Source: Aquificota bacterium (GTDB lineage Bacteria; Aquificota; Aquificia; Aquificales; Aquificaceae). Taken from it: 40,350 nt of DNA. Shown piece by piece: positions 4,562 through 19,196 of this stretch. The stretch is taken from the NCBI GenBank assembly GCA_013154375.1, contig JAADCR010000003.1, positions 1-40,350 on the forward strand, written 5' to 3'. Under the pieces are notes generated by a model. It was not told the DNA's origin, ran no database searches, and saw nothing but the letters and a program-made list of their open reading frames with translations. How positions within the stretch are numbered: the stretch's first letter is position 1; each line of letters starts with the position of its first letter. The translations under genes were made by a program, and so were the position numbers.

Positions 4562-5467
4562 AGAGGCTTTCCCGGAGCTGCCGTAAAGGCGGATGCGCCG
4601 CTTTACCATCTCTTTAACCCGCTCGGTAGCTTCGCGGAGAAACTCCCTCGGGTCTACGGTTTTTCTCTTCTCGTTTAGAGCCTTCCTTAGGCCGGCGCTC
4701 CAAGCCAGCCGGAGGTCTACGTCCGTGTTTACCTTGTTTATCCCCAGCTCTACGGCCTTTTTAAGCTCCTCGTCGGGTAGACCTTTGGTTTTCGTAAGCT
4801 CGCCGCCGTAAGCGTTTACCTCCTCCACGAGCTCCTCGTAAACGCCGCTCGCGCCGTGCAGAACCAGCGCAACCCCCGTAAGCCTTTTTACCTCTTTAAG
4901 ACGCTGGTAGTCGACGGCGTGCTCTCCGCGGAACTTAAATATCCCGTGTGCCGTACCTATGGCCGGTGCCAGCGCGTCCACGCCCGTCTGCTCAACGAAC
5001 TCCTTAGCCTGCAGCGGCTCGACCAGCAGACAGCCCTCCTTTTTACCGGCCTCCACGCGCCCCAGCTCGGCCTCCACCGCCACGCCCAGCGGTGCACAGA
5101 GCGAGACGACCTCACGCGTCACGCGCAGGTTCTCCTCAAAAGGCCTGTCCGAGAGGTCTATCATCACCGAGGTGTAGCCGTACCTGAGAGCCAGCTTCAC
5201 CGCATCTAAGCTCTTACCGTGGTCCAGATGTAAGGCAAAGGGGATAGAGTACTTCTTCTCCACCTCTTTAACCATGCCGGCCAGATAGTCTATGCCTGCG
5301 TACCTTAAGGCGTTCTCGCTCGTCTGTAGAAATACGGGAGCCTCTTCCTCTTGAGCCGCTTCGAGGATAGCCTTCAGAAACTCCATGTTGTTGAAGTTAA
5401 AAGCACCGACGGCAAAGCCGTAGTAGTTAGCCGCCTCGAAGAGAAGCTTACCGCTTACCAGAGGCAT
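4541..5467 (-). CDS. fba: Class II fructose-bisphosphate aldolase
   Basis: Zinc-dependent aldolase interconverting fructose 1,6-bisphosphate with dihydroxyacetone phosphate and glyceraldehyde 3-phosphate, working in glycolysis and gluconeogenesis. The 308-residue TIM barrel shows the HLDHG motif with Asp82 and zinc ligand His83, zinc ligand His174 in GTAHG, and His204 in LHGASG; the phosphate-binding NTD segment is near residue 245. Length fits short bacterial class II enzymes, and a tagatose-bisphosphate aldolase cannot be excluded. The ATG has no Shine-Dalgarno; a TAAACT hexamer ends 7 bases before it, suggesting a leaderless transcript. It is divergent from the dehydrogenase starting at 5495, with 27 bases between. 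Confidence 0.9.
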   Translation of the reverse strand: MPLVSGKLLFEAANYYGFAVGAFNFNNMEFLKAILEAAQEEEAPVFLQTSENALRYAGIDYLAGMVKEVEKKYSIPFALHLDHGKSLDAVKLALRYGYTSVMIDLSDRPFEENLRVTREVVSLCAPLGVAVEAELGRVEAGKKEGCLLVEPLQAKEFVEQTGVDALAPAIGTAHGIFKFRGEHAVDYQRLKEVKRLTGVALVLHGASGVYEELVEEVNAYGGELTKTKGLPDEELKKAVELGINKVNTDVDLRLAWSAGLRKALNEKRKTVDPREFLREATERVKEMVKRRIRLYGSSGKASLVREGF

Positions 5468-13025: not shown

Positions 13026-13085
13026 TTGAAGATTTTCTAAACTCGGTTATATTAAATTTTTAGTTAAAACTTTAATAGGAGGTGG
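13026..13085 (+). promoter_or_regulatory. Promoter and Shine-Dalgarno of the prefoldin operon
   Basis: TTGAAG (13026-13031), a 16-base spacer and TATATT (13048-13053) form a good housekeeping promoter in an AT-rich region. The leader is about 32 bases and carries TAGGAGGTGG (13076-13085), near-perfect to anti-Shine-Dalgarno, 9 bases before the ATG. This predicts strong expression of the first gene. Confidence 0.7.
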
Positions 13086-13091
13086 GTAGCC

Positions 13092-13544
13092 ATGGCCGAA
13101 GAGAAGAAGGAGCTTAAAAAGAGCCCTGAAGAGCGGATGGAAGAGCTTAACCGTCAGCTCCGCGGCTACATGGCCCAGATTGAGGCCCTCAGGGCCGAGA
13201 TAGCGGCCATTAACCAAGCCATAGCGGACCTCAGGCTCGCGGAAGCCACGCTCAGGGCCCTTAAGGAGCTGGGTAAAGGTAAAGAGATTCTCCTTCCCGT
13301 GGGTGCCACGGCGCAGGTAAAGGCCAAGATAGAGGGCGTAGACGAGGTCATTATGAGCATAGGGACGGGCATATCGGCCGTCATGTCCTACGACGAGGCC
13401 ATAGAGAAGATAAGGAGGGAGATTACGGCGCTCGAGGCCCTCAGAAGGACGCTCGAGGAGGCCATAGCCGAGCTTTACAACCAGATTGAGGAGCTGCTCG
13501 AGCGCGTCAGGGAAGTCGGTAAAGAGGAGGCTCAGGCTCAATGA
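13092..13544 (+). CDS. Prefoldin alpha-subunit family protein
   Basis: A 150-residue protein built as a long N-terminal coiled coil (about residues 10-62), a beta-hairpin core (64-96) and a C-terminal coiled coil (98-145), the architecture of prefoldin alpha. The core EILLPVGATAQVKAKIEG followed by DEVIMSIGTG closely matches the archaeal alpha-subunit consensus (L-V-P-V-G-A, then VIMSVGAG). Prefoldin is a jellyfish-shaped hexamer that holds unfolded proteins and is mostly archaeal and eukaryotic. It is first in a seven-gene operon with the strongest ribosome-binding site there. A prefoldin-beta-like candidate lies at 15960. Horizontal origin from archaea is possible; no group II chaperonin gene is in the window. 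Its clients are unknown. Confidence 0.85.
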   Translation: MAEEKKELKKSPEERMEELNRQLRGYMAQIEALRAEIAAINQAIADLRLAEATLRALKELGKGKEILLPVGATAQVKAKIEGVDEVIMSIGTGISAVMSYDEAIEKIRREITALEALRRTLEEAIAELYNQIEELLERVREVGKEEAQAQ

Positions 13545-14032
13545 GGTACTTTCTGATATCCGCGCTGATAGCCTTGGCAGGCCTTATGGTAGGAGGCGGT
13601 ACCGCCTCCTACCTTACTTACAACAAGCTAATAAGGCAGTTCCAGAACATACCCGGCTCGCCCATAATCCTGACGGCCGTTTACGACAAAGAGAAGCACA
13701 TCCTGCTCTACACGATAACCAACCCCGGTACTACGCCCCTGACCATCGTCGAGAAAGCCCTCGTCTTTACGCCCGGTAAAGAGAGCAAAGAGCAGGCTTA
13801 CATCCTGTCTAACATACCCGCCAACGTCGTGCTGCCGCCCCTCAGCACGGTGGTGGTGGAGCTAAAGCTGAAGGCCGAGACGGAGGAGCTCAAGCCGGGC
13901 GACGTGGTGGTGGCCACCTTTACCTACCAGCACCCGCTCTCGGACGACCTGTATACGGTAGTACACACCTTCGAGCACGGGCCTAAAGAGCAGAAGACCG
14001 AGCAGCAGGGGCAGAAGGAGGAGGCTAAATGA
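13541..14032 (+). CDS. Membrane-anchored protein with extracytoplasmic beta-rich domain, unknown
   Basis: I do not recognise this 163-residue protein. Residues ~4-28 form one hydrophobic helix with a GLMVGGG stretch, either an anchor or uncleaved signal. Residues ~40-145 look like a beta-sandwich: alternating hydrophobic strands (IILTAVY, ILLYTITN, VVVELKLKA, VVVATFTY) with a NPGTTPL turn resembling immunoglobulin-like accessory domains. The C-terminal ~20 residues are Gln/Lys/Glu-rich and probably disordered. It overlaps the prefoldin stop by 4 bases (ATGA) and the next gene by 4 bases. A 26-base perfect palindrome lies inside its transmembrane-coding region. It may present a binding surface outside the cytoplasm for the operon's membrane partner. 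Confidence 0.6.
   Translation: MRYFLISALIALAGLMVGGGTASYLTYNKLIRQFQNIPGSPIILTAVYDKEKHILLYTITNPGTTPLTIVEKALVFTPGKESKEQAYILSNIPANVVLPPLSTVVVELKLKAETEELKPGDVVVATFTYQHPLSDDLYTVVHTFEHGPKEQKTEQQGQKEEAK
13588..13613 (+). repeat. 26-bp perfect palindrome inside the second gene of the prefoldin operon
   Basis: GGTAGGAGGCGGT is immediately followed by its exact reverse complement, centred between 13600 and 13601 and about 45 bases after the prefoldin stop. As RNA it would fold to a very stable GC-rich hairpin of about 11 base pairs that also hides an AGGAGG. No T-run follows, so it is not a standard terminator. Confidence 0.75.
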
Positions 14033-14568
14033 GGCTCCAGAGCATTTTCCAGTGGGGGCTTATAGCCCTTCTGGGCGCCCTCCTTATTTTCGCCTTTACG
14101 GGCATACTGGTAAGCGCGCTGGTGGCCTTCCTCTCGCCCGAAGGGCTGGCCTTCCTGCTGGGCTTTATCGGTGCGTGGGTGTTTGCCAACCGTCTGCTGT
14201 TCGGCTACGGGAGCTTTCTGCTCGCGGCCGAGGCTTATCTGGCTAAAGACGAGGTGAACTTAGAAGAGCTTAAAGAGAAGACGGGCGAGCCTAAGGAGCG
14301 GCTTGAGAACCTCTCGCCCGTAGCCCTCTTTGCCCTCTGGCTCCAGCACTTAGAGTACTTCCGTTACGCCTACTACGGTCTTTTTACGCTGCTTCTTATC
14401 CTTATGCTCCTGTCGAAGTTTAACCTTTTAGGTGCTTTAGCTTTAGGGAACTACCTCGAGGGGGCCTTCTGGGGCGCGGCGGTTATAACGCTTTTCGTCT
14501 TTGCCTTTGAGATTACGGCGGGCTACCTTATGGACCGCATAAGGAGCGAGAAGGGAGCGGCCCTATGA
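14029..14568 (+). CDS. Four-helix membrane protein, unknown
   Basis: Unrecognised 179-residue integral membrane protein. Four hydrophobic segments are visible at about 8-35, 39-65, 113-133 and 145-167. A soluble loop of about 45 residues (68-112) between helices 2 and 3 is charged and helical (NLEELKEKTGEPKERL). The C-terminus is short and basic-acidic, probably cytoplasmic. Both ends overlap neighbours by 4 bases. Together with the preceding single-span protein it suggests that this operon works at the inner membrane. No transporter, protease or kinase motif is visible. Confidence 0.6.
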   Translation: MRLQSIFQWGLIALLGALLIFAFTGILVSALVAFLSPEGLAFLLGFIGAWVFANRLLFGYGSFLLAAEAYLAKDEVNLEELKEKTGEPKERLENLSPVALFALWLQHLEYFRYAYYGLFTLLLILMLLSKFNLLGALALGNYLEGAFWGAAVITLFVFAFEITAGYLMDRIRSEKGAAL

Positions 14569-15248
14569 GGGAGCTGCCCCTCGAGGTGGCCCTCCGTACA
14601 TTAGTTTTCGAGACGCTCGGCCGGCCGGAGAAGGAGCGGGAGTTTACCGTCGAGGACCTCCGGCGGTGGGGCTTTGACCTGCTGTATGGGAAGGTTAACG
14701 GTAGGCCGGCCTTTTTCGTCGGTAAGCTCGGCACCGAGGTAGGGGACGCGTGGGAGGAAGAGGGTAAGGCCTACGAAGTGGAGGAGGTGCTTTTAGAGCT
14801 CCCGCCTAAAAAGAGGCTGCTCGCGCGCGTGTTTACGCGTAACGGGACGGCCTTTTTAAGCGCTTACCTGCGGGAAGGCGAGCAGGACGAGGAGATTCTC
14901 CGTCTGCCCGCGGCCGAGCTGCTCTACGCGTTTTTCGTTAAGCACCACCTTCACCACCTTATAAACGCGCTAAAGAGCGTGGGGATAGTTACGGAGTTTT
15001 TCAAGCAGCGGGGGAGCGAGACGGTACCGCTGCCTTACGAGAAGCTCCCGCTCGTGGCGCGTGACTTTCTCGAGCGGGCTAAGCGCGTGGAGAAGATGGC
15101 CGGCTACGGGCGGGTGGCCCTCGCTTACTTCGGTAAGACGCGGGACAAAGACAACCGGTTCCGCGTCTCGTGGCTCCTGCCCACGGTGGCGCTTTTCGAC
15201 TTAGAAGTTTCGGAGAAGGCCAACACCGCGCTGGGGGAGTTTAAGTGA
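14565..15248 (+). CDS. Soluble protein of unknown function in the prefoldin/RAMP operon
   Basis: Unrecognised 227-residue protein without signal or transmembrane segment. The N-terminal ~120 residues read as mixed alpha/beta (FEFTVEDLRRWGF-like helix, then strands such as AYEVEEVLLELP and RLLARVFTRNG). The middle is helical with a His cluster FFVKHHLHHLINAL at about residues 123-136. The C-terminal part ends in a strand-rich SWLLPTVALFDLEVSEKAN. It overlaps its neighbours by 4 bases on both sides, so its amount is tied to the membrane protein before and the RAMP-like protein after. The His cluster might bind metal, but that is a guess. Confidence 0.5.
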   Translation: MRELPLEVALRTLVFETLGRPEKEREFTVEDLRRWGFDLLYGKVNGRPAFFVGKLGTEVGDAWEEEGKAYEVEEVLLELPPKKRLLARVFTRNGTAFLSAYLREGEQDEEILRLPAAELLYAFFVKHHLHHLINALKSVGIVTEFFKQRGSETVPLPYEKLPLVARDFLERAKRVEKMAGYGRVALAYFGKTRDKDNRFRVSWLLPTVALFDLEVSEKANTALGEFK

Positions 15249-15967
15249 GGCTGCTCGCGTGGAGCCCGGTCCTGCCCGAGGGCGGGCGGTTCCCGCGCCG
15301 CGAAGGCCGCCCGTTTCTGCCGGGCAGCGTGCTTAAGGAGGCCTTTAAGGACGCGCTCGTTTACTACGCGCTTAAAAAAGACGCGGCGCTGGCGCGCTCG
15401 CTGGCGCGCTTTTTAAAGACGCACAGGAAGACGAGCCTCTCGGCGCTTATAAAGACGGTGGAGCGGTCGGTGCTTGAGCGTTACGGCGGGCTGCTTGGCG
15501 GGCTTAAGCTGCCCGAGCGCGTGGAGCTGCCGCCGGAGGCGGTTGTTGAGCGGACCGTCGAGGTTTACGACCTTAGAAAGAAAGACTTTAAGGAGGTCTT
15601 CCGGAGTGAGGTCTTTTTAGGGGCGGCGGAGCTCGAGGGGGAGCTGCCGGAGGAGCTTAAGAGCGCCTGTCACTCGTACTGCGAGGCCCTGCTGCACGCC
15701 GAGCTTACCTTTCTCCGGGACCACCCGTTAGGCGAGCTTTTCCACCGTCAGCTCTCGAGCGAGATAAAGCGGTGGGAGTACCCGCTCAGGCTCGGCTTCT
15801 GGACTACGGCCCCCTTCGGGGGCCGTCTTTTCTGGTTCTGGAGTAACAAAGAGGTTAGAAACCGCGTCCGCAGGCTTTACGGGATAGACATCAGACCTTT
15901 TAGGGTAATATATCTACCGCGGGAAAAGCAGACCGCGGGATGGTCGGAGGTAAAGCAGGATGCTTGA
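15245..15967 (+). CDS. RAMP-superfamily protein resembling Csm5 (orphan)
   Basis: A 240-residue protein with features of the RAMP (Cas7-like RRM) proteins, closest by eye to Csm5 of type III-A CRISPR complexes. Seen: an N-terminal strand LLAWSPVLPEGG, a RAMP-like RPFLPGSVLKEAFKDALVYYAL (residues 22-43; compare the I-P-G-S-S-L-K-G-A-hr-ta-l of Csm5), a late RLGFWTTAPFGG resembling the Gly-rich loop, and a C-terminal YLPREKQTAGWSEVK resembling the Csm5 ending (R-x-L then L-G-W-v-k). It is shorter than usual Csm5. No cas10, csm2-4 or repeat array is in the window, so it is not part of a normal CRISPR locus here. The GTG start overlaps the previous stop (GTGA). RNA binding is an inference from family; confidence moderate. 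Confidence 0.45.
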   Translation: MRLLAWSPVLPEGGRFPRREGRPFLPGSVLKEAFKDALVYYALKKDAALARSLARFLKTHRKTSLSALIKTVERSVLERYGGLLGGLKLPERVELPPEAVVERTVEVYDLRKKDFKEVFRSEVFLGAAELEGELPEELKSACHSYCEALLHAELTFLRDHPLGELFHRQLSSEIKRWEYPLRLGFWTTAPFGGRLFWFWSNKEVRNRVRRLYGIDIRPFRVIYLPREKQTAGWSEVKQDA

Positions 15968-16256
15968 GCGGCTCAGGAAAGTTACCGAGGTGCTTAAAAA
16001 GGCTCTTGAGTTTAAGGGCGAGGAGAAGGCAAAGCTGCGCGAGGAGAAGGTGGAAGAGGCGCTTAAGCTCCTCGAGGAGCTCGAGCGGGATATAATGGAG
16101 AAGGAGCTTAAACTCGCCCTTGCCGTTATCGACGAGCTTAAAGGCGAGCGTAAGCTCTACTACCTTCTTGGCAAGCTCTACGTAGAGGTCTCTAAGGAAG
16201 AGGCTAAGGAGCTTATAAAGAAGGAGCTCGAGCTCTTTAAAGGAGGAGAGGAATGA
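15960..16256 (+). CDS. Small helical protein, possible divergent prefoldin-beta-like subunit
   Basis: A 98-residue, highly charged Lys/Glu/Leu helical protein. Residues 1-65 form a long coiled-coil-like helix; ERKLYYLLGKLYVEVSKEEAKELI at 67-90 resembles the hairpin segment of prefoldin beta (VYK-x-v-G-nllvkv-kee). The C-terminal helix is only about 18 residues, against 40 or more in real beta subunits, so it is either truncated or a different fold. The alternative is a generic helical adaptor. It overlaps the RAMP-like gene by 8 bases with GGAGG 9 bases before its ATG, and overlaps the next gene by 4 bases. Confidence 0.4.
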   Translation: MLERLRKVTEVLKKALEFKGEEKAKLREEKVEEALKLLEELERDIMEKELKLALAVIDELKGERKLYYLLGKLYVEVSKEEAKELIKKELELFKGGEE

Positions 16257-18205
16257 TTATAATGCGCGAGCACGCTATAGCCCTCCTCGCGGTAAAGGAG
16301 GCTCTCGAGCGCGGCGAGCCGACTTACAAAGTAAGAGAGAAAACGCGCGAAGAAGAGGTCTTTTTAGAGCTCGAGTTTCAGAACCTCGTAAGACTTAAAA
16401 ACCCCCTCGAGTACGTGCTTACCTACTGGGGTGAGGCGCTCGTTAACCTCATGCGCGACATGATAGAGAAGGGTTTTATCCCTCACCCCGAGCAGTGGGA
16501 GGAGGACTTCCGCTGGGTAGGCTCCGAGATAATAAACATGATTCACTCCACGCTCTTAAACGACGGCCGGCCCGGTAAGAAGATAGAGCACGCACTGGCC
16601 GACCGGGGCTTTTTAGGCGAGGTGGAGCTGCCTAAGAAGGGCAAGGTAAAGACGGTAAACGAGTACGCAAAGCGCGTCTACGAGATATACCAAGAGATTA
16701 CTCCGCGTCTCGAGGTGTCGCGCGAGCTGGCGCAGTACATAAAGAGCATGCCCCCCGGCCCGGCCGAGAAGGGTATGCTGCCCGAAGGGAAGCACTTCCC
16801 GCTGCTCATGGAGTCGATGAGGCTTATCGCTTTCTCCGTACCCAACTCCGACGTTTACACGCTTACGGCCCTCGGTCAGGCCGTCCGGGAGGCGCTTAAA
16901 GAGATTCCCCCCTCTTTAGAGACGCTTATATCCGAAGACATACTTGAGGACTTTATCCTCGCCCTCGACGAAGGGATAGACAAGCTGCCCGACGCGGGTA
17001 AAGAGGTCCTTTACGCTCTCGCCCTTTTCGACGCGGAGGGTAACCTCCTGCCTGCGGGGGAGAAGCTCCTAGAGGTCTACCGCATATGGAAAAAGAAGGA
17101 GCTAAAGCCGCCCAAGACCTTTAACCTCGAGGTCTTTGAAGAGGAGCTGCTTTTAACCATCGACAAGCTCCTTAAAAAGCACGAGGAGCTCGCCGGTCCT
17201 TTGCCGACTAAAGAGGAGCTCGTCAGGGAGCTGCTGCTGAGGCCTTTAAAAGAGTACAAGCACCTCGTGGAGTTTTACGGCCGCCGGATAAACCAAGACT
17301 TTAACTACAAGAAAAAAGAAGAGATAAAGAAGAAGTTCCAAGAGCTTAAAACCGTTGAGGAGCTGTTTAAGCACTTCTACGAGCAGGGCGGGAAGTGGTA
17401 CAAGAAGATGATGGACCTCGTGAGCGAGGCCCTCTACTCGCTCGAGTCGTTCGACCTTATAACCACCGACCTGACGGAGAAAGGTGAGCTCTACTACAAG
17501 CCCACCGAGTACGGTAAGAAAGTTATAGAGGACCTAAACAGCCACGGCGTGCGCGACGTAACCGCCACGGGCGTAAAGGCCATAACCGTAAGCAAGGGTG
17601 AGTTTACGGCTCCTAACTACGAGTGGTACCGGCAGGCCCTCGAGGAGGTGCTCGTAAGAAGCGGCTCGCCCACCGACAGCGGCAGGCTGTACGCAAACCT
17701 CGCTTACGAGATAAAGAGAAAGCCCCACCTTACGCGCTTCGAGCTTATCGTTCTGCACAAGATACCCAAGGCGGGTATGTTCTTAGACGAGCTGTACGCG
17801 GAGTTCGACGAGACGATGAGAGAAGAGGTACACCTCGCGGTGGAGAAGCTCCAAGCCCGCGGTTACCTCGACGTTCTGCCCAACGACGGGCTCGTGCTCA
17901 CGCGCGCGGGCGAGCTTATAAAGGAAGCCGTCTCTTCCGTACCCGAAGGTCTGGGTAACCCCGTAAACCCCTTTATGTTCCGGATAATCAAGGCCATATA
18001 CGAGGTGGGCAGCCTCTACGTAAAAGAGGAGAAGGTACGGATACTGCCCAAGCAGTTTGAGGAGGTAGAGAAGAAGACGGGTCTCGACCACGAGACGTTC
18101 GTCAACGAGCTTGCGCTTCTGCGTCTTCTGGGCATCCTCGGACAGAACTCGCTGCACAAGTCCGGGCTGGCCCTCCTTAAGGCGGTAGAAGAGCTGGAGG
18201 GCTGA
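16253..18205 (+). CDS. DUF505-like tandem winged-helix protein
   Basis: A 650-residue soluble protein, all-helical with short strands, that I take to be a DUF505-type protein, a family of unknown function seen mainly in archaea and thermophiles. A winged-helix-end pattern (LT-x-x-G-x-x-L/V-x-E/A) recurs about six times: near residues 54-66, 202-216, 262-276, 414-427, 546-559 and 633-645. This implies a chain of winged-helix modules, which bind nucleic acids or proteins. The N-terminal REHAIALLAVKEALERGE and following LVRLKN are helical. ATG at 16253 is preceded by AGGAGGAGAGG and overlaps the previous stop by 4 bases. It is the last gene before a terminator. No catalytic motif is visible. Confidence 0.55.
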   Translation: MIIMREHAIALLAVKEALERGEPTYKVREKTREEEVFLELEFQNLVRLKNPLEYVLTYWGEALVNLMRDMIEKGFIPHPEQWEEDFRWVGSEIINMIHSTLLNDGRPGKKIEHALADRGFLGEVELPKKGKVKTVNEYAKRVYEIYQEITPRLEVSRELAQYIKSMPPGPAEKGMLPEGKHFPLLMESMRLIAFSVPNSDVYTLTALGQAVREALKEIPPSLETLISEDILEDFILALDEGIDKLPDAGKEVLYALALFDAEGNLLPAGEKLLEVYRIWKKKELKPPKTFNLEVFEEELLLTIDKLLKKHEELAGPLPTKEELVRELLLRPLKEYKHLVEFYGRRINQDFNYKKKEEIKKKFQELKTVEELFKHFYEQGGKWYKKMMDLVSEALYSLESFDLITTDLTEKGELYYKPTEYGKKVIEDLNSHGVRDVTATGVKAITVSKGEFTAPNYEWYRQALEEVLVRSGSPTDSGRLYANLAYEIKRKPHLTRFELIVLHKIPKAGMFLDELYAEFDETMREEVHLAVEKLQARGYLDVLPNDGLVLTRAGELIKEAVSSVPEGLGNPVNPFMFRIIKAIYEVGSLYVKEEKVRILPKQFEEVEKKTGLDHETFVNELALLRLLGILGQNSLHKSGLALLKAVEELEG

Positions 18206-18214
18206 GCCCTCTTT
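18197..18214 (+). terminator. Terminator of the prefoldin operon
   Basis: GAGGGC (18197-18202) pairs with GCCCTC (18206-18211) with the stop codon TGA of the last gene as the loop, followed by TTTCCCTT. It separates the operon from pgi/pmi. Confidence 0.65.
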
Positions 18215-18233
18215 CCCTTAAAATGTCTTTTCT
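18215..18233 (+). promoter_or_regulatory. Short leaderless-type promoter of the pgi/pmi gene
   Basis: TAAAAT (18219-18224) ends 9 bases before the ATG at 18234 and no Shine-Dalgarno is present. The -35 region would fall in the preceding terminator hairpin. Confidence 0.45.
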
Positions 18234-19196
18234 ATGAAAGCAGAAAAACTCGTGGAGGGGTTCTGGCAGCAGCTGCTGCCGGAGGGGGGGATACCGAGAA
18301 TACCGCTTAGCGAGCTAAAAGGGCTCGTTCTCTGCGGCATGGGCGGCTCGGGCATCGTCGGGAGCGTGGCCCGGACGCTTCTTCTTAAGCGCGGCTACGA
18401 GAAGCCCGTCGTTACCGTAAAAGACTACGACCTGCCGCCTTTCGTAAAAGACGGCTACGGCGTCGTCTGCGTTAGCTACAGCGGCAACACCGAAGAGACG
18501 CTTCACAACTTCCGGCAAGCCCTCGAGCGGGGCCTTCCCGTCTGGTGCGTCACCTCCGGCGGTAAGCTCGAGAAGCTCGCCCGCGAGCACGGACTGCCCG
18601 TCGCCTTGGTCCCTAAAGGGCTCCAGCCGCGTTTTGCCTTCGGCTACATGTTCTCCCGGCTTCTCCTTATGCTCGGCTTTACCGAGAAAGAGCTAAAAGA
18701 CGGGGCCGAGTTTTTAAGGGCCGAACAAGACGGGCTTAAAAAGCTTGCGCTTAATCTGGCCGAGCGGCTTTACGGCTTCGTCCCGGCTCTGTACGCCACG
18801 CCCCTCACCGCGCCGGCCGCCCACCGGTGGAAGGCCCAGCTAAACGAGAACGCCAAAACCCCTTCTCACGACGCCGTTCTGCCCGAGCTGCACCACAACG
18901 AGCTTATGGGCTGGAGCAACTTCCTCCTGCGCGACAAGTTCGTCTACTTACTCTTTAAAGACCCCGAAGACCACGAGCGGAACCTTCTCCGTGCCGAGCT
19001 TACCGAAGAGTTACTTAAGGAGCTCGGCCACAACCCCGTAGTTTTAGAAGGAAAGGGCGAGACGCTTCTTAAGCGGACGCTCTGGCTTATTAACCTCGGC
19101 GACTGGGTGAGCGTGCTTCTGGCCGGCCTGTACGGCTACGACCCGCTCTCTATACCCCTTATAAAACAAGTAAAAGAGCGTCTCGAGCATGCCTAA
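18234..19196 (+). CDS. Bifunctional phosphoglucose/phosphomannose isomerase
   Basis: Cytoplasmic isomerase of fructose 6-phosphate with glucose 6-phosphate and mannose 6-phosphate, linking gluconeogenesis to sugar nucleotides. The 320-residue length matches the short archaeal-type PGI/PMI known also from Aquifex. Tandem SIS domains are visible: GMGGSG (residues 35-40), SYSGNTEET (81-89) for sugar-phosphate binding, LNENAK at about 203, and LPELHHNEL near 217-225 with the catalytic Glu/His. It overlaps truA by 8 bases. Confidence 0.92.
   Translation: MKAEKLVEGFWQQLLPEGGIPRIPLSELKGLVLCGMGGSGIVGSVARTLLLKRGYEKPVVTVKDYDLPPFVKDGYGVVCVSYSGNTEETLHNFRQALERGLPVWCVTSGGKLEKLAREHGLPVALVPKGLQPRFAFGYMFSRLLLMLGFTEKELKDGAEFLRAEQDGLKKLALNLAERLYGFVPALYATPLTAPAAHRWKAQLNENAKTPSHDAVLPELHHNELMGWSNFLLRDKFVYLLFKDPEDHERNLLRAELTEELLKELGHNPVVLEGKGETLLKRTLWLINLGDWVSVLLAGLYGYDPLSIPLIKQVKERLEHA

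Follow-up and report, generated by a model that had tools for sequence, protein, structure and literature searches.

In Escherichia coli, the tLST island carries an envelope-stress module made up of YfdX1, YfdX2 and HdeD, which are all individually needed for heat resistance (PMC8290217). The island itself is thought to have originated in a bacterium that lives under extreme conditions (PMC8290217). Here, we describe a seven-gene operon whose closest described counterparts are this module, the archaeal prefoldin (GimC) and Csm5 of type III-A CRISPR systems. The operon lies in a 40,350-nucleotide stretch of DNA from an Aquificota bacterium (assembly GCA_013154375.1, contig JAADCR010000003.1, positions 1 to 40,350), which we refer to as the window. 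Its open reading frames (ORFs) are listed below with window coordinates.

13092..13544, + strand: ORF1, prefoldin alpha, 150 amino acids (PF02996, E-value 1.9e-27; TIGR00293)
13541..14032, + strand: ORF2 (memB), 163 amino acids, a single N-terminal hydrophobic segment and a conserved domain predicted to be beta-rich
14029..14568, + strand: ORF3 (mem4), 179 amino acids, multi-spanning membrane protein by hydropathy
14565..15248, + strand: ORF4, UPF0128/TIGR00703, 227 amino acids (PF03673, TIGR00703)
15245..15967, + strand: ORF5, compact stand-alone RAMP assigned to the Csm5 family by Foldseek and hhalign, 240 amino acids, GTG start
15960..16256, + strand: ORF6, shortened prefoldin beta, 98 amino acids (Prefoldin_2; family profile)
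16253..18205, + strand: ORF7, DUF505, 650 amino acids (PF04458; weak winged-helix-like stretches)

A preliminary description of the window had proposed a membrane-attached complex that handles RNA or nascent proteins, possibly a "defence or quality-control device". We read the seven genes, with a confidence just short of an even chance, as a protein- and envelope-quality-control module of marine-vent thermophiles that would act under thermal or oxidative stress. Of the two halves of that first guess, quality control is the stronger, because YfdX, HdeD and archaeal prefoldin recur as partners of these genes.

UPF0128 and the RAMP Are Paired in Two Phyla

We followed the genes through 136 Aquificota genomes, 298 Campylobacterota genomes and 40 further genomes with UPF0128, ranging from WOR-3 to Archaeoglobaceae and Methanocaldococcus. 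Among the Aquificota, 51 genomes have at least one of UPF0128, the RAMP and prefoldin alpha, and 44 have all three; in 39 of these 44 the genes for UPF0128 and the RAMP lie side by side, and all but 2 of the 44 have DUF505. In the Campylobacterota, UPF0128 and the RAMP occur in an identical set of 10 genomes, in every one of them as neighbours 2-15 base pairs (bp) apart, and all 10 fall among the 19 genomes with DUF505. The corresponding p-values (7.7e-19 for UPF0128 with the RAMP and 7.1e-14 for co-occurrence with DUF505) overstate the evidence, because they ignore phylogeny. The UPF0128-RAMP pattern is replicated in two phyla. Moreover, the trees of the two proteins correlate (r = 0.67, against a highest value of 0.25 in 2000 permutations; 49 loci, one divergent paralogue excluded).

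Among the 40 UPF0128 genomes from outside the Aquificota, DUF505 is present in 37 and a strong RAMP match in 22. A second set of 40, most of it shared with the first, has prefoldin alpha only in archaea and in WOR-3 metagenome-assembled genomes (MAGs) with the full cluster. One Archaeoglobaceae MAG has a prefoldin alpha-prefoldin beta-DUF505 operon with overlaps of 4 and 10 bp, another places UPF0128 and DUF505 1 bp apart, and in an Aquificota outgroup DUF505 adjoins prefoldin alpha. The neighbours are therefore rearranged rather than freely varying, and they recur together across many phyla. This recurrence, together with RAMP and prefoldin calls that profile searches made firmer (see below), means that the notion of these genes as a functional set holds up.

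The Operon Divides into Two Submodules

The same seven-gene order, with similar overlaps, was found in two more genomes of the genus Aquifex (G001 and G004), and the exact order is restricted to that genus. In genome G005, prefoldin alpha-UPF0128-RAMP-prefoldin beta and memB-mem4-DUF505 are on separate contigs. Both G005 and G006 carry a UPF0128-like scar (GREVGERW-EGG-) between mem4 and DUF505, at 4904-5000 of locus L061 and 4921-5203 of locus L062, from which we infer that a prefoldin-UPF0128-RAMP submodule was excised from an ancestral operon like that of the window. The split set and the scar together thus argue that the operon is two interleaved submodules, one of which was lost as a unit: prefoldin alpha, UPF0128, RAMP and prefoldin beta on the one hand, and memB, mem4 and DUF505 on the other. 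An assembly of all seven proteins in fixed stoichiometry, which had been deduced from the uniform gene overlaps, is unsupported, because overlaps do not imply it and relatives split the set in two.

ORF5 Is a Predicted Member of the Csm5 Branch of RAMP Proteins

Single-sequence searches with ORF5 gave mere hints of Csm5. When the AlphaFold2 model of ORF5 (predicted local distance difference test, pLDDT, 92.8) was compared with the PDB by Foldseek, all 10 chains that matched at E ≤ 0.001 were Csm5 (best E 3.4e-7, TM-score 0.63 on the query), and hhalign against a profile of 12 genuine Csm5 proteins returned a probability of 97.0 and an E-value of 1.2e-10. The curated Csm5 model TIGR01899 scored ORF5 at 12 bits, below its cut-off of 38.3, and matched 4 of 19 ORF5 relatives at E ≤ 0.01 (best 1.7e-6). 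It matched the relative in G001 at 1.2e-6. In the reverse direction, an alignment of the 19 relatives detected genuine Csm5 in other Aquificota, at up to 1.6e-8. ORF5 has 240 residues, compared with roughly 350-400 for Csm5. Across 53 members of its family, the G-S-x-x-K-G-x-x-R motif of Csm5 is unconserved, and E153, R182, G184, W199, K202 and R205 are conserved. Since fold and profile both point to Csm5, and since the protein is compact and the motif unconserved, ORF5 is best placed in the Csm5 branch of the RAMP proteins without being a Csm5. Structure and profile thus agree with the Csm5-like call made in the preliminary description.

No csm genes were recognised beside the RAMP in the loci examined, and the window's genome gave no Csm5 match. 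Of the 136 Aquificota genomes, 48 carry the RAMP and 49 a genuine Csm5, and the two are distributed independently (p = 0.35), which rules out the RAMP as a Csm5 substitute in the CRISPR complex of its own genome. The ORF5 RAMP does not belong to a CRISPR complex. Binding of RNA by the RAMP is possible in light of its ancestry, but motif conservation gives the idea no support.

A Prefoldin Alpha Subunit Is Encoded with a Shortened Beta Subunit

ORF1 lies well above both prefoldin alpha cut-offs (TIGR00293, 99.2 bits against 53.9; PF02996, 96 against 23.2) and is, by these scores, a genuine prefoldin alpha, where earlier it had been termed alpha-like. ORF6, which had been considered prefoldin-beta-like, matched Prefoldin_2 weakly by itself (E 4.1e-4). 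The profile of its family matched the prefoldin beta structure 2zdi at 3.1e-7, and PF01920 was matched by 15 of the 15 family members, both confirming that call. ORF6 remains under the curated prefoldin beta cut-off (20.7 bits against 27.6) and does not have full-length coiled-coil arms; most of its relatives, at 55-71 amino acids, are cut down to the central hairpin with its short helices. ORF6 supplies, in the same genome, the beta partner expected of prefoldin, a holdase that binds unfolded proteins as an alpha2beta4 hexamer.

UPF0128, DUF505 and the Membrane Proteins

ORF4, previously left as an unknown, is now placed in UPF0128/TIGR00703 (PF03673, 298.7 bits against a cut-off of 21, E 3.1e-89; TIGR00703, 309.6 against 155.4). 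Its AlphaFold2 model has a pLDDT of 94.2, and a fold search of the PDB with the model gave no match at E 0.001. A sequence match between UPF0128 and MJ1213 (E 0.08) was discarded as chance. Several genomes of one Aquificota family carry a second, divergent UPF0128 paralogue that is unlinked to the first (two loci), and in five Methanococci loci the gene after UPF0128 encodes a small conserved protein (81-85 amino acids) with no Pfam family.

ORF7 matched PF04458 over the entire profile (1-622 of 622; 804.6 bits against 28.7, E 7.5e-242), in agreement with its description as DUF505-like; its matches to winged-helix-type families were below cut-off (HemN_C, 0.0013, and others). For the two proteins that had been called membrane proteins, hydropathy analysis bore out the hydrophobic segments, one at the N terminus of ORF2 and several in ORF3, but neither protein matched a known family. 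memB is a conserved family of 24 sequences for which no Pfam or PDB relative was found, and mem4 is a conserved family with no Pfam match. We ruled out mem4 as a relative of HdeD (hhalign probability 0.1).

YfdX and HdeD Recur beside the Core Genes

The commonest extra family around UPF0128-RAMP is YfdX (PF10938), with a raw count of 22 loci. It lies downstream of UPF0128-RAMP-prefoldin in Hydrogenothermaceae, a Kapaibacterium MAG has it downstream of UPF0128-RAMP, and YfdX-HdeD stand divergently beside UPF0128 in Deltaproteobacteria. Three Campylobacterota loci encode, in one direction, a Crp-type regulator, YfdX, DUF1931, an HdeD-type DUF308 protein, DUF505 and a peroxiredoxin; this operon-like run is a candidate stress operon in itself.

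Other neighbours were seen in other lineages. In six Nautiliaceae loci, UPF0128-RAMP comes after QueE- and QueD-like genes (7-deazaguanine, queuosine-type synthesis; named from motifs). In six Nitratiruptor-type loci, the order is a DEAD-box-type helicase, a DUF6781 coiled-coil protein, a BON-domain protein and then UPF0128-RAMP.

Gene Overlaps and Control Signals in the Window

The six overlaps that link the seven genes measure 4, 4, 4, 4, 8 and 4 bases (ATGA, ATGA, ATGA, GTGA, ATGCTTGA and ATGA), and both the seven genes and these lengths agree exactly with the preliminary description. The two signals proposed to bracket the operon are as follows.

13026..13053, + strand: promoter-like site TTGAAG-16-TATATT (consensus scan, 9/12 matches)
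18196..18212, + strand: hairpin GGAGGGC-TGA-GCCCTCT, whose loop holds the last stop codon (fold of 18180-18240)

The first had been taken for the single promoter of the operon, a claim that we do not uphold, as sites with such a match occur at chance density (2 in the region against 1.1 expected). The second had been called a terminator. The hairpin around the stop codon has a real stem, but it has no proper T tail and was not scored as a terminator, and the region folds no better than shuffled sequences (z -0.59). The strongest terminator-like site of the region is within the RAMP coding sequence, where a G+C-rich hairpin of nine pairs (window 15806-15826) is followed by CTTTTCT.

Discussion

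In the model that we favor, Aquifex would have interleaved the two submodules into a single operon. Prefoldin alpha and the shortened beta subunit would form a small holdase for unfolded chains, and memB and mem4 would tether the module to the inner membrane, filling the place that YfdX and HdeD occupy in other lineages. UPF0128 and the Csm5-type RAMP would form an obligate heteromer as the specificity or docking (targeting) part, perhaps through contacts with RNA or ribosomes; nothing indicates catalysis. DUF505, an ancient partner that is shared with archaea, is probably a nucleic-acid-binding regulator or scaffold. The present genes may be the thermophile counterpart of the tLST envelope-stress module. 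A bolder version, which we regard as unlikely, has the Csm5-derived RAMP recruited from CRISPR to serve, with UPF0128, as an RNA-binding sensor or ribosome adaptor that steers the mini-prefoldin holdase to proteins at the membrane that are nascent or damaged. If true, thermophiles would possess a protein-quality-control machine that is linked to RNA and has its roots in archaea.

Several observations weigh against a quality-control module. The window's operon has neither YfdX nor HdeD, which are linked to it through association in relatives. DUF505 occurs without the other members in about 20 Aquificota genomes, and the Campylobacterota with UPF0128-RAMP carry no prefoldin alpha; because they keep the pair in this way, prefoldin is dispensable to it, and we rejected the idea that the core pair obligately depends on prefoldin. 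UPF0128, DUF505, memB and mem4 are uncharacterised families without a solved relative. The QueE-QueD and DEAD-box helicase-DUF6781-BON neighbours could point instead to work on RNA. Lastly, many relatives come from short MAG contigs, for which misbinning is possible, although the WOR-3 copies of the RAMP group as a separate lineage in its tree.

A role in RNA handling, in which UPF0128 and the RAMP would bind a cellular RNA (tRNA, rRNA or a small RNA) or take part in its maturation, DUF505 would be a nucleic-acid binder, and the membrane proteins and prefoldin would help in assembly, seems to us somewhat unlikely. The Csm5 homology of ORF5, the weak winged-helix matches in DUF505, and the queuosine-type genes and helicase beside UPF0128-RAMP are consistent with it; however, the RAMP family has lost the G-S-x-x-K-G-x-x-R motif, with the R-x-G turn alone left, each type of RNA-related neighbour is limited to a single lineage and known from raw occurrence, and prefoldin, YfdX and HdeD are not RNA proteins. 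A holdase co-encoded with two membrane proteins, in a set that some genera carry and their sister genera wholly miss, might also be a dedicated assembly factor for a single envelope or respiratory complex of vent thermophiles instead of a general stress system. Among the relatives, however, no respiratory or secretion gene is a fixed neighbour, and the cytochrome bc genes near the operon in the window lie on the opposite strand and are not kept as neighbours from phylum to phylum, so we consider a dedicated assembly factor quite unlikely.

We also asked how well chance would explain the locus, since the genomes of Aquificota are small and, outside the core pair, the genes change order. That unrelated thermophile housekeeping genes came to share operons by chance in small, streamlined genomes is very unlikely: identical partners recur, differently arranged, in archaea and several phyla, even unlinked genes co-occur almost without exception, and chance is already contradicted for UPF0128-RAMP. 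Despite the Csm5 homology and a patchy, phylum-crossing distribution, an anti-phage defence or CRISPR ancillary system is hardly credible. PADLOC had no family for ORF2, ORF3, ORF4, ORF6 or ORF7, gave coiled-coil noise for ORF1, and matched ORF5 to Csm5/Csm3 at E 0.009 or worse; PHROGs likewise yielded at most coiled-coil noise and weak Csm matches for the core proteins, and plasmid and viral searches found no relatives. Near-fixed adjacency and correlated trees are not signs of rapid turnover, and the RAMP is independent of genuine Csm5, for which the window's genome has no match. The defence half of the earlier proposal thus gained nothing from these searches, and quality control is the half that we retain.

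A literature search, mostly outside subscription journals, found no paper on UPF0128, TIGR00703 or the gene combination, and none on a "bacterial prefoldin", on prefoldin with YfdX or on prefoldin with Csm5; an apparent match to "DUF505" was false, being DUF5059. Nor did we find a paper describing a system that does envelope protein protection with these parts. If the quality-control module is real, it would be a proteostasis or stress system with an archaeal-type chaperone in bacteria and a CRISPR-family protein outside CRISPR. It would place UPF0128, DUF505, memB and mem4 in a shared setting, with partners that can be tested, and would tie YfdX and HdeD, poorly understood heat-resistance proteins of the E. 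coli tLST island, to genes of vent thermophiles.

Overall, the locus resembles each of three known systems in part. ORF5 shares with Csm5 of type III-A systems its fold and profile, a C-terminal R-x-G turn and a GW end; unlike Csm5, it is short, scores below the curated cut-off, has lost the G-S-x-x-K-G-x-x-R motif at the family level, has no CRISPR neighbours and occurs independently of Csm5. The likeness to tLST lies in the YfdX and HdeD families, which recur beside UPF0128, the RAMP and DUF505 in other phyla, whereas the operon in the window has neither family, the neighbourhoods examined showed no recognisable ClpK, FtsH or small heat-shock protein, and the core proteins here are missing from the tLST gene lists of PMC8290217. 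In contrast to archaeal prefoldin (GimC), the prefoldin here is bacterial, has a beta subunit of 98 amino acids (55-71 in most relatives) compared with 117 in 2zdi, and is co-encoded with membrane proteins, UPF0128 and a RAMP. It resembles GimC in that ORF1 passes the alpha cut-off, the ORF6 profile matches beta structures, and the prefoldin genes are operonic with DUF505 in one archaeon too.

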